Of a DNA stretch of 23,909 bases, positions 3,408 to 16,410 are shown piece after piece. The DNA lies in IMG/VR virus record IMGVR_UViG_3300021961_000633, positions 1-23,909 of that record; one strand, written 5' to 3'. Position numbers and translations under genes: made by a program. Each line of letters begins with the position of its first letter. The first letter of the stretch is position 1. The stretch is from a virus. The notes below the pieces were generated by a model, which saw only the letters and a program-made list of their open reading frames with translations, ran no database searches and was not told the origin of the DNA.

Positions 3408-4520
3408 ATGTTTAAGTTACACAATTGGGTACAAGAATTAGTACAGTCATTTACATTTTATGGTGGTGGTGGTTCAGGCGGTGGTGGCACATCTGAAACC
3501 AAAAGCGAACTAGATCCTACTGTAAGACCATTCGTAGAATATGGTTTGGGTGAAGCTAAAAACTTATATCAAACTACTACGCCTGAATACTTTAAAGGTC
3601 AAACATATGTTAGCCCATCTGCTCAAACAGAATCTGCATTGGCACAAGCTGAAGCACAAGCAAGAGCAGGAAGCCCACTTACAGGTGCAGCACTTAATCA
3701 ACAATTAGGTACTGTACAAGGTCAATATTTAGGTGCTAACCCATATTTCCAAGCTGCTATGCAACCAGCTGTTCAAACAGCTACACAAGCTTATAACGAT
3801 GCTATTAAGCAAGCACAAGGTTCAGCGTCTATGGCTGGTCGTTATGGATCTAATGTATCTGCTGACCTTCAAAATAGAGCTGCTAATACTTTGGCTACAA
3901 CTTTGACTGGCAAAGCGGGTGAACTTGCTTATCAAAACTATGCTACAGAACGTGGTAGACAAGAAGCTGCTGCATTACAAGCTCCTCAATTAGCTCAATC
4001 TAGATTCCAAGATATTAACCAACTTATGAATGTTGGTCAAGCTAGAGAACAATATTCACAACAAGCTCTTGAAGATGAAATTGCTAGATTTGAATTTGAA
4101 CAAAACAAACCATACACTAAACTACAAGCTTATTTGGGTGCTGCATACGGTGCTCCAATGGGTCAAGTTACAAAAACAACTCAATCAGGTGGTGGCAAGA
4201 TTGTATGTACAGCTATGAATGCTGAATATGGCTTTGGTAGCTTCCGTAATTCTATCTGGTTAGCTCAATCTAAAGATTTAGACCCAGCATACGAAAAAGG
4301 ATACCATAAACTATTCTTACCATTAGTAACCTATGCTTATAAAGCAGGTGAAAAAAATGCCCTACAACGCATTTTAAGGGGTGTTTTAGAGCATATCGCA
4401 AGACATAGGACTGCTGATATATGGAAACAAAAACGTGGTAAAAACAGAGATAATATTGGTATGGTTTACAGATTTATTCTTGAACCTATTTGTTATATAG
4501 TAGGAAAGGTAGGCAAATAA
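3408..4520 (+). CDS. Probable internal/injection virion protein
   Basis: 370 aa from the ATG at 3408, preceded by AAGGAAC (3396-3402). The open frame extends upstream to 3333, but that part overlaps the GNAT gene without an SD. After an amphipathic N-terminus there is a Gly-rich linker (GGGGSGGGG), then a long Ala/Gln-rich helical region (~residues 55-245) with heptad-like spacing. A distinct basic C-terminal domain follows with one clustered Cys-Thr-Ala motif (KIVCTAMNAEYGFGSF) and a hydrophobic end (YRFILEPICYIVG). Composition and neighbourhood fit an ejected internal virion or tail-tip protein. The stop shares a TAATG with the next gene. Confidence 0.6.
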   Translation: MFKLHNWVQELVQSFTFYGGGGSGGGGTSETKSELDPTVRPFVEYGLGEAKNLYQTTTPEYFKGQTYVSPSAQTESALAQAEAQARAGSPLTGAALNQQLGTVQGQYLGANPYFQAAMQPAVQTATQAYNDAIKQAQGSASMAGRYGSNVSADLQNRAANTLATTLTGKAGELAYQNYATERGRQEAAALQAPQLAQSRFQDINQLMNVGQAREQYSQQALEDEIARFEFEQNKPYTKLQAYLGAAYGAPMGQVTKTTQSGGGKIVCTAMNAEYGFGSFRNSIWLAQSKDLDPAYEKGYHKLFLPLVTYAYKAGEKNALQRILRGVLEHIARHRTADIWKQKRGKNRDNIGMVYRFILEPICYIVGKVGK

Positions 4521-5317: not shown

Positions 5318-6967
5318 ATGGCAAACGGATTATTAGATTATATTCAAAATTTTGATGTTAATAAAACATTAGGCGTTCAATATGGATTGCCTAAAGGCAT
5401 GCTATCTCCTGACATTGAAAGTCAAATGGGTGTAAGTGGTGCACTTACTGGAGTAGGAAATGTTATAGAGGGCATACAACAAGGTGCTAGTGTTCCAGAA
5501 AATATATTTAGATTTTTGTCTGGTCAAAGAACAGGTCGCCAAAATATTGCTAATACAGCTGTTCAAAACTACATGAATCAATTAAATGTTGCTAAATTAC
5601 AAGGCGATATTGCACAAGATCCTTTTAAACTTGCTAAATTAAAATTTGAAGTAGAAAAAGCACCTTATGAACTTGGCAACTTACAAAATCAATATTTTCA
5701 AAGTTCGTTTAAAACGCAAGGTATTAAAAGTGAACTTAAAAAATTAGAAGACGCTGGAAAATTTGACGAATTAAATACATTAGCTGCAAATCCTGATGAG
5801 TATTTTAAGCGATTACTTTCTACAGATATTAATAAAAAAGAGTACACCCAGCCAGAATTAAGTGCTGCAAGAATATTAAACCTTGATCCAAGAAACAGAT
5901 CAAATTGGAATGAACAAGATGAATTAAATTATAATGCAATTATATCTGCTCCAAGTCAAGCTGAAGCATTTAGAATTAATGCAGAATCACTTGCTAGACA
6001 TAAAGCAGACCCTAATCGTGTTCCTTACATTCCTGTTCCATCTAGAAATGATGTTATTGCACAAATTAGAAAAGAAACCAAAGGAACATCTATTGCACAA
6101 ACAAATGGTCAAGTAAATGTTACTCAACCTAATTACAATCCTTCCGAATTATCTAATTTACCAGTAGGTCAATTTGCTCCTACACCAAAATATAAAGAAG
6201 GTGGCGTTAAAGGTGCAGACGGAAAAATATATTCTACAGAAGAATTTAATAAATTAGGCACAGAAAAACAAAATTTATTATTAAGAGATGTAACTCGTGA
6301 AGAATATGTTAAAGAAGATAAAACATTGTATGAAAACATAAGGCAAGATAAAGCAAGTGCACAATATGCTAATTATAATGCTGATAGAACATCAAAATAC
6401 ATAGAAAAAATATTAGATAATCCTGAAAAATTTACAAAATTATTTAGTACTTTTGGTGGTAGATTACCTATTACAATTAATAAAGCAACAGGTAACTTTG
6501 TTGCAACAGAATCAGCTGCACAAGATATTGTTAATTTATTAAACACAATTAAAGGTCAACAATTTACAAATGAAATTCAGCTTATGAGAGCAAATAACAA
6601 AACTGGTGGTGCTGTAGGTAACGTATCTGATAGAGAAGTAAGTATGTTTCAAGATATGGCTGCTAATTTAAATTACAGTGGTTCTGCCGAGCAATTATGG
6701 AGCGAATTAAATTCTCTATATAATCAAGGTCATAAAATGAATAATATCTATTTAAATAACTTTAAAGATTATTATGGTGAATCAGAATTTAATAGATATA
6801 AAATAAATAATTTAAAATTAAATCAAAAACAATTTAGTCCATTATTAAATGAAGCTTTAACTTTACAAAAACAAACTAAATTAAAAAATAGAGTAGAAAA
6901 TATTAGCCCTATTCAAGGGCTTTCTCCAGAAGGTCAATCAGCATACGATTTATATAAACCTAAATAA
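5318..6967 (+). CDS. Large internal virion protein, unknown function
   Basis: 549 aa, preceded by AAGGATAAAAATG, the same SD context as the collar fibre. It is mostly alpha-helical, with long charged helices at residues ~90-160 and ~330-420. The segment NNKTGGAVGNVSDREVSMFQ (~residues 425-445) is a recurring motif in large internal proteins of aquatic podophages. No catalytic motif is seen. It sits between two glycine-zipper proteins, so an ejected core protein is likely. Confidence 0.6.
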   Translation: MANGLLDYIQNFDVNKTLGVQYGLPKGMLSPDIESQMGVSGALTGVGNVIEGIQQGASVPENIFRFLSGQRTGRQNIANTAVQNYMNQLNVAKLQGDIAQDPFKLAKLKFEVEKAPYELGNLQNQYFQSSFKTQGIKSELKKLEDAGKFDELNTLAANPDEYFKRLLSTDINKKEYTQPELSAARILNLDPRNRSNWNEQDELNYNAIISAPSQAEAFRINAESLARHKADPNRVPYIPVPSRNDVIAQIRKETKGTSIAQTNGQVNVTQPNYNPSELSNLPVGQFAPTPKYKEGGVKGADGKIYSTEEFNKLGTEKQNLLLRDVTREEYVKEDKTLYENIRQDKASAQYANYNADRTSKYIEKILDNPEKFTKLFSTFGGRLPITINKATGNFVATESAAQDIVNLLNTIKGQQFTNEIQLMRANNKTGGAVGNVSDREVSMFQDMAANLNYSGSAEQLWSELNSLYNQGHKMNNIYLNNFKDYYGESEFNRYKINNLKLNQKQFSPLLNEALTLQKQTKLKNRVENISPIQGLSPEGQSAYDLYKPK

Positions 6968-15170: not shown

Positions 15171-15559
15171 TAATAAAATACCATCCTTCCTATGTGGACT
15201 ACTTTCTTTTTATTCCAAATAAATCTCATATCTATACTATCATCATGAAAATAAAGACTATTTGCAACTGGGTTAGCATACTTCTTAAAAACTAATGTGT
15301 CAAGTACCAGTAATTGAGTTTCTAAAAACATTTTTTGATCTGGTTTAGCTTGCTTACCATTTACATAGTTTTCTACTCCTATGAACTGCCCACGACTATA
15401 CACAACCTCACAAGCATCTTTGCCAAACCTTTTAGACCTTACTCTATTTGCAATCACATGAATAACCCCTAACTTTTCCTCTAGTGATTGCGTATTGACT
15501 TCTGTATAAACTGCTGTAGCTATACAATGAACGTCATGCTCTGTCAGTTGCATGTCCAT
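15170..15559 (-). CDS. SleB-type cell wall hydrolase (Hydrolase_2)
   Basis: 129 aa. TEHDVHCIATAVYTEVNTQS, then GVIHVIANRVRSKRFGKDAC and EVVYSRGQFIGV, match the SleB/CwlJ catalytic core: Glu in the YxE segment, NRV, and the VVYxxxQF end. A late histidine region (LYFHDDSID) also fits the fold. Such enzymes cleave peptidoglycan. It lies in the leftward early operon, away from the lysis genes, and has no export signal. It may serve lysis, remodelling, or an unrelated job. TAATG-coupled to the 109-aa gene. Confidence 0.75.
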   Translation of the reverse strand: MDMQLTEHDVHCIATAVYTEVNTQSLEEKLGVIHVIANRVRSKRFGKDACEVVYSRGQFIGVENYVNGKQAKPDQKMFLETQLLVLDTLVFKKYANPVANSLYFHDDSIDMRFIWNKKKVVHIGRMVFY

Positions 15560-15888
15560 TATGGTTTGTAAACATTATACACAAGTGGATGAATAACATC
15601 TGCACCTATAATATCTATTATCTTTTTTCTAATAGAATCTTTATGCACGTTTACTACAAAACAACATGAATCTAATAATTCGCTATTAGTAAACAACCAT
15701 TTAATAGCGTCTATTTTGTTTTCAAAATTAATCTTATGATGATACTTCATATTTTTAGTACCTGATTTATTAGGTGCGTGTCTATATAAAGCATCTTCTA
15801 CTGCTTGCGTTAGTATACATGTCAGCAATTTACCCTCTGGGGTATGTGCTAACACACTATTGTCATCAAAATCTATAATCTCTTCCAT
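15559..15888 (-). CDS. Hypothetical 109-aa protein
   Basis: 109 aa, SD GGAG before the ATG (complement of 15893-15896). The N-terminus is acidic; a central basic segment (RHAPNKSGTKNMKYHHK) precedes DAIKWLFTNSELLDSCCFVV and a helical end. No family is recognised. It is the first leftward gene after the pqqA gap, so it either needs its own promoter or is reached by read-through from the SSB-like gene. Confidence 0.55.
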   Translation of the reverse strand: MEEIIDFDDNSVLAHTPEGKLLTCILTQAVEDALYRHAPNKSGTKNMKYHHKINFENKIDAIKWLFTNSELLDSCCFVVNVHKDSIRKKIIDIIGADVIHPLVYNVYKP

Positions 15889-16020
15889 AATGTCTCCGTA
15901 TTTTCATTAGGGTAATATAAATATTTCTTACTTGCTTTTGTATCGCAAAAACAGCATAATTTTATATACAAACTACTTTGTCTTGCATGTATTACATACA
16001 AAGGTGTTTGTGTAGCAAAA

Positions 16021-16038
16021 TGTGTAATATATTACACA
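16021..16038. promoter_or_regulatory. 18-bp perfect palindrome, candidate operator
   Basis: TGTGTAATATATTACACA is identical to its reverse complement. It lies 46 bp upstream of the PqqA-like start and within the gap between two leftward genes. A smaller related palindrome (ATGTATTACAT) lies nearby at 15987-15997, sharing TGTA and TACA ends. No strong -35/-10 pair is visible around it. It looks like a protein-binding site for a dimeric regulator. Confidence 0.6.
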
Positions 16039-16084
16039 CAAATGTACTAAATATTAGAACAATTGATCTATTAAGGAGAACAAT

Positions 16085-16156
16085 ATGTGGACAACACCAT
16101 CAGCAACAGAAATGCGTTTTGGCTTTGAAGTAACTATGTACGTTATGAACAAGTAG
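16085..16156 (+). CDS. pqqA: PqqA-like coenzyme PQQ precursor peptide
   Basis: A 23-codon frame with a strong SD (AAGGAG at 16074-16079) ending TAG. It begins MWTTP and ends N-K, and holds the family core RFGFEVTMY, with E15 and Y19 in E-V-T-M-Y at exactly the positions of the Glu and Tyr that PqqE cross-links to build PQQ. Length, the Trp at position 2 and the core all match bacterial PqqA. It is antisense to the flanking leftward operon and no pqqB-E gene is in the window, so maturation would use host enzymes. Expected effect: more precursor for PQQ-dependent dehydrogenases such as methanol dehydrogenase. Identity by motif is strong; function is inference. Confidence 0.85.
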   Translation: MWTTPSATEMRFGFEVTMYVMNK

Positions 16157-16169
16157 TTATAAGCATGTT

Positions 16170-16197
16170 GGGGATGCTCCTAAAAAGGAACATCCTC
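16170..16197. other. Stem-loop between the PqqA-like gene and the convergent SSB-like gene
   Basis: GGATGCTCC (16172-16180) and GGAACATCC (16187-16195) pair as a 9-bp stem with one mismatch (C16177/A16190), extended by a G-T and a G-C pair, around the loop TAAAAA. The stop codon of the leftward SSB-like gene lies at its edge. Neither strand has a following T-run, so it is not a standard intrinsic terminator. It may still slow both convergent transcripts or protect RNA ends. Confidence 0.4.
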
Positions 16198-16410
16198 ATC
16201 TACTGCTGCTTGTTTAGGCTTAACATCACCATCTTTTAGCTGTACAGATCCACTAATAAACTTACCTTTAGCACTTTCTCTAATCCAGCCACTAATTCTA
16301 AATTCAATACCATCTACGTTAGCAATACCTGTGTAATCTGGTCTTTTAGGATTGTCTCCCTTATCATTCTTAAATAAAGTAAACGTGTTTGTGTTGTCAT
16401 ATTCTGCCAT
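16180..16410 (-). CDS. SSB-like protein with acidic DEDVPF tail
   Basis: 76 aa. TFTLFKNDKGDNPKRPDYTG, FRISGWIRES and GKFISGSVQLKD suggest a small OB-like beta barrel. The C-terminus ends DEDVPF, close to the DDDIPF tip that bacterial SSB uses to recruit repair and replication proteins. With ERF and YqaJ upstream in the same operon it probably binds single strands or docks host SSB partners. SD GGAAAATAAA. Much shorter than E. coli SSB (about 178 aa). Confidence 0.65.
   Translation of the reverse strand: MAEYDNTNTFTLFKNDKGDNPKRPDYTGIANVDGIEFRISGWIRESAKGKFISGSVQLKDGDVKPKQAAVDEDVPF

Follow-up and report, generated by a model that had tools for sequence, protein, structure and literature searches.

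A phage-borne gene for the PQQ precursor peptide PqqA in viruses of Methylophilales bacteria, and its probable contribution to host methanol oxidation

Background

The cofactor PQQ is excised from the peptide PqqA, one molecule of which is consumed for each PQQ produced; residues Glu15 and Tyr19 of PqqA are the ones that PqqE cross-links. A 23-codon open reading frame (ORF) resembling pqqA in a stretch of viral DNA of 23,909 nucleotides (the window, which is a complete IMG/VR virus record) raises the question of whether a phage encodes a genuine PqqA and, if so, what such a gene contributes during infection.

Identity and phage context of the ORF

The translation of the ORF, MWTTPSATEMRFGFEVTMYVMNK followed by a stop codon, contains the sequence E15-V-T-M-Y19, in which Glu15 and Tyr19 have the E-x-x-x-Y spacing expected of the PqqE cross-link pair. 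It matches the full profile (positions 1-19) of Pfam PF08042 with an E value of 1.4e-10 and 41.3 bits (cut-off 21.1), and NCBIfam TIGR02107 with an E value of 6.9e-10 and 38.5 bits (cut-off 20). The initial annotation had read the ORF as PqqA from its length, its strong Shine-Dalgarno site and the E15-V-T-M-Y19 motif, and had proposed a family search; the translation, the AAGGAGA site (Table 1) and both family profiles, matched well above their curated cut-offs, agree with that reading, and by family membership the ORF encodes a real PqqA. PqqA of the Methylophilaceae, recognized by the same two profiles, has the same length, the pattern MWTxPxATEMRFGFEVTMYVMNK, Glu15 and Tyr19, and a dyad upstream of its gene; AAGGA-type sites recur upstream of pqqA in both phages and hosts. 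A chance ORF is ruled out by the PF08042 and TIGR02107 matches, by constraint at the codon level and by retention of the ORF in 75 of 76 phage loci recruited through a neighbouring gene.

The gene is surrounded in the window by genes for a cell wall hydrolase, YqaJ and ERF recombination proteins and a DnaB-like helicase, and phage ctXG6705 (from Manatee Spring) has 86% DNA identity with the window across one third of its length. With the virus record itself and the presence of the same ORF in phage isolates, this places pqqA in a real phage genome, as had been proposed from the sequence. Host contamination is ruled out by the virus record, the identity with ctXG6705, the phage genes alongside and the lack of PqqB-E matches in viral loci.

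Table 1. Features of the pqqA region; positions are numbered from the first nucleotide of the window
Feature	Position	Strand	Remarks
Dyad match CTCCGTATTTTCATTAG	15894..15910		13.0 bits, middling; no other site in the window reaches 12 bits
Possible weak -35 box TTGCTT	15932..15937	+	Prediction; 17 bp before CATAAT
Predicted -10 box CATAAT	15955..15960	+	Prediction; 44 bp past the dyad
Shine-Dalgarno AAGGAGA	16073..16079	+	5-6 nt ahead of the ATG; read from the sequence
pqqA	16085..16156	+	23 codons; PQQ precursor peptide PqqA; family matches and conservation in relatives
Stable hairpin	16169..16198	+	-16.4 kcal/mol, z -3.9; just 3' of pqqA
Small convergent gene, SSB-like	16180..16410	-	Counterpart in ctXG6705 annotated 'putative single-stranded DNA-binding protein'; neutral bait for relatives

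Distribution among phages

Among 50,697 phage records searched at the protein level, the same ORF is present in ten (P19250A, Venkman, MEP301, MEP401, MEP402, four Melnitz records and ctXG6705), nine of which are named as Methylophilales or Methylophilaceae phages; the host of P19250A is a freshwater methylotroph of the LD28 group. These related records support a methanol-eating Methylophilales host for the window virus, and with it the earlier suggestion of a PQQ-using methylotroph. None of the ten records labels the ORF as PqqA, and the annotations of ctXG6705 and Melnitz place an antisense ORF across it; at only 23 codons, the gene was short enough to go unnoticed. The carriers differ widely, comprising one siphovirus-like phage, podovirus-like phages and one T4-like myovirus, with MEP402 filed under Zobellviridae and the T4-like Melnitz under Kyanoviridae.

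Relatives were found by a DNA pattern and by neighbouring genes, not by the 23-amino-acid peptide. A degenerate DNA-pattern scan of IMG/VR yielded at least 120 loci, and the PqqA ORF is present in 119 of the 120 among the matches listed. The gene families flanking pqqA form 91 different pairs among 126 phage loci; thus pqqA does not belong to a single inherited neighbourhood. A search of IMG/VR for PqqA of the alphaproteobacterial (VGMEVT) type gave matches in only two contigs. Several viral contigs (L004, L012, L017, L023, L024, L027, L073 and L077) encode PqqA of another type and have no upstream dyad, and probably belong to phages of other PQQ-making bacteria. Matches in Acinetobacter 'phage' sequences lie next to pqqBCD and a gene of the radical-SAM type; they were treated as bacterial and left out.

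Selection on the phage gene

Neighbouring genes served as bait so that relatives were not chosen through the peptide itself. With the SSB-like gene of the window as bait, pqqA is in place in 75 of the 76 sufficiently long loci, and omega in this lineage is 0.056 (33 distinct DNA versions). In the sole exception (L352), another gene, oxygenase-like by eye, follows position 4240. Recruitment through a neighbour in P19250A recovers pqqA in 64 of 80 loci (omega 0.07), and through a neighbour in Venkman in 55 of 80 (omega 0.08); with the MEP402 neighbour, pqqA is present in 4 of 45 loci (omega 0.10), most relatives being without it. Constraint is tightest over codons 9-23, where omega ranges from 0.004 to 0.04 across the four phage sets and where, in the window lineage, the synonymous difference is 0.58 and the protein-changing difference 0.0045. 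Glu15 and Tyr19 are invariant in all 199 neighbour-recruited copies of the four sets, every set retains a host-like C-terminal tail, and the dominant phage peptides do not differ in sequence from those of hosts. Judged by these codon comparisons, pqqA is under purifying selection in phages. The initial annotation had proposed looking for the same ORF and for purifying selection in related phages, and had named loss of Glu15 or Tyr19 there as evidence against its reading; the ORF is kept, at an omega of about 0.06, and neither residue is lost.

A substrate supplied without its enzymes

Queries with PqqB, PqqC, PqqD and PqqE of Methylophilus methylotrophus found no match in 251 viral loci (the window and 250 others, 2.07 Mb), and the same queries matched 25, 24, 19 and 17, respectively, of 150 host loci as a positive control. 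In none of the loci examined does the phage copy adjoin pqqB-E and, unlike host pqqA, it usually stands alone among phage genes; the phage would provide only the substrate that is consumed. Among Methylophilaceae genomes, 185 of 187 contain pqqA, most of them in multiple copies (as many as 12), and a published account gives 3-12 copies of pqqA versus a single pqqBCDE (PMC4109929). Multiple host copies of pqqA with a single pqqBCDE are consistent with selection on the dosage of the precursor.

A dyad common to phage and host pqqA

A motif model built only from host data (115 different pqqA upstream regions) has the consensus CTCATGATTTTACTTAG, a 17-bp dyad that marks most pqqA genes of Methylophilaceae and the pqqBCDE genes of M. 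methylotrophus. Matches of at least 12 bits occur in 92% of host regions and 52% of distinct regions upstream of phage pqqA, compared with 0.5% of shuffled sequences and 1% of random phage stretches. With further lineages included, 62 of 116 distinct phage upstream regions contain the dyad, among them 32 of 32 in the P19250A lineage; it was not found in MEP402 or in about half of the distinct phage upstream regions. Exact matches in five host genomes lie upstream of pqqA or pqqB in 10 of 14 cases, and at pqqB of M. methylotrophus the dyad CTCATGATTTTACTTAG occupies positions 6166-6182 of the locus (L441). The 500 nucleotides upstream of methanol-dehydrogenase-type ORFs contain it in none of 20 cases. 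In one host genome (L411), an exact dyad precedes ORFs that by eye resemble a cytochrome and a PQQ-dependent sugar dehydrogenase.

Host regions most often have 44 bp between the dyad and the closest TATAAT-like box (47 of 106), and in phages the commonest spacing is 21 bp (24 of 62); the dyad typically lies closer to the phage gene, starting at about -92 versus about -127 in hosts. From ordinary promoter geometry, these spacings would place the centre of the dyad around -41 or -64, positions used by activators, and the dyad is a candidate activator site common to phage and host pqqA. Its presence at phage pqqA as at host pqq genes implies that the host regulator of pqqA probably switches on the phage copy too. 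In the window the dyad stands ahead of CATAAT at exactly the commonest host spacing, and it overlaps the Shine-Dalgarno (ribosome-binding) site of a divergent gene at 15559-15888; because of this overlap, the case for the dyad is weaker here than in P19250A or Melnitz.

Proposed role and alternatives

The phage gene probably encodes a functional PqqA that raises the supply of substrate for PqqB-E of the host, under host pqq control, and so sustains methanol oxidation. The phage would carry the substrate alone, expressed from a stand-alone unit with a host-type dyad upstream, and the host's own PqqE/PqqD, a protease, PqqB and PqqC would convert it to PQQ. Extra PqqA would sustain PQQ synthesis while host genes are shut down, if the peptide is then limiting, and PQQ-dependent methanol dehydrogenase (XoxF/MxaF) could, up to lysis, go on yielding energy and, by way of formaldehyde, carbon. 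It also seems rather likely that many unrelated lineages of Methylophilales phages have converged on one extra gene for a consumed precursor, placed under the putative pqq-specific activator site of the host. The strategy resembles that of cyanophage psbA (D1), an auxiliary metabolic gene that replaces the fastest-consumed host component and keeps the energy supply going, with the difference that psbA encodes an enzyme subunit and PqqA is a precursor peptide that is consumed.

A phage PqqA that is made and processed might instead provide PQQ for a need other than methanol oxidation, such as another PQQ-dependent dehydrogenase, redox protection or release at lysis. The exact dyad ahead of cytochrome-like and sugar dehydrogenase-like ORFs and the lack of dyads at methanol-dehydrogenase-type ORFs are in keeping with this possibility, but it is unlikely, given that the PQQ enzymes known from these hosts are mainly methanol dehydrogenases (PMC4109929) and that a virus population of Lake Baikal has both pqqA and a methanol dehydrogenase gene (PMC7678222).

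The initial annotation had offered two uses of the peptide, raising PQQ supply and competing for PqqE/PqqD. The second would make phage PqqA a decoy that occupies PqqE/PqqD of the host, or a later step, and cuts PQQ synthesis, starving competitors or slowing the host; a substrate can indeed compete with the host's substrate, and pqqB-E are absent from the phage loci. A decoy, however, should tolerate or even favour loss of Glu15, Tyr19 or the processing region, and these residues and the C-terminal tail are kept in four phage sets whose dominant peptides are those of the host; nor would a lytic phage evidently gain from blocking the main energy source of its host. Since all residues required of a substrate, and the tail, are as in the host, a decoy is improbable; raising supply is the better fit of the two, because the whole substrate stays host-like. 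That the phages merely captured short, functionless stretches of host DNA in recent times is very improbable: the peptides are near identical to those of hosts and four nucleotide sequences are exactly common to host and phage, but strong divergence at synonymous sites (pS about 0.5) contrasts with all but unchanging protein sites (omega 0.06), the gene is present in nearly all relatives of the window and in 91 different contexts with no other pqq gene alongside, and the 199 neighbour-recruited copies contain no stop codon or loss of frame.

Relation to earlier reports and implications

Whether a phage pqqA had been described before was left undecided by the initial annotation. One prior report exists: a 2020 study described PqqA alongside a methanol dehydrogenase gene in VP_266, a T4-like Methylophilaceae virus population of Lake Baikal (PMC7678222). 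Like the window, VP_266 is a virus assigned to Methylophilaceae that encodes PqqA; in contrast, the window is a small phage in which no methanol dehydrogenase gene was seen, and here the gene is found in many unrelated phages. In the open-access literature, the papers on the OM43 phages Melnitz, MEP401/402, Venkman and MEP301 make no mention of pqqA, and other reports may exist. The occurrence of pqqA in cultured phages, its breadth and prevalence, the strength of selection on it and its apparent wiring to host pqq control through the regulatory site appear to be new.

The presence of so small a gene in very many viruses of these bacteria implies that PQQ supply probably matters in infection, and suggests that it is a bottleneck in infected methylotrophs. 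Phage pqqA ranks among the smallest metabolic genes in phage genomes, and offers an easy sequence marker for viruses that infect methanol oxidizers of marine and fresh waters. The dyad gives a starting point for identifying the regulator that controls PQQ synthesis in Methylophilaceae, and the cultured carriers (P19250A, Venkman, MEP301, MEP401/402 and Melnitz) make the role of the gene directly testable.

Predicted transcription unit in the window

A simple sigma-70 scan gave no promoter site for pqqA, at 15932-15937 or elsewhere, and the promoter in Table 1 was then predicted by comparison. A simple terminator scan likewise found none by pqqA. The hairpin past the gene, which overlaps the 3' end of the convergent SSB-like gene and recurs in relatives, is a possible transcript end, though it has no clear U tract. 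The leader of pqqA in the window contains a perfect palindrome, TGTGTAATATATTACACA, at 16021-16038, which is absent from a close relative (L285), and more inverted repeats at 15967-16012; these could form a phage repressor operator or an RNA hairpin. In phages and hosts, pqqA leaders (from about -60 to -10) have a mean folding z of about -1.3 to -1.4 relative to shuffled copies, compared with about -0.2 to -0.6 for the flanks, and a 5' stem-loop in the leader may protect the short mRNA.
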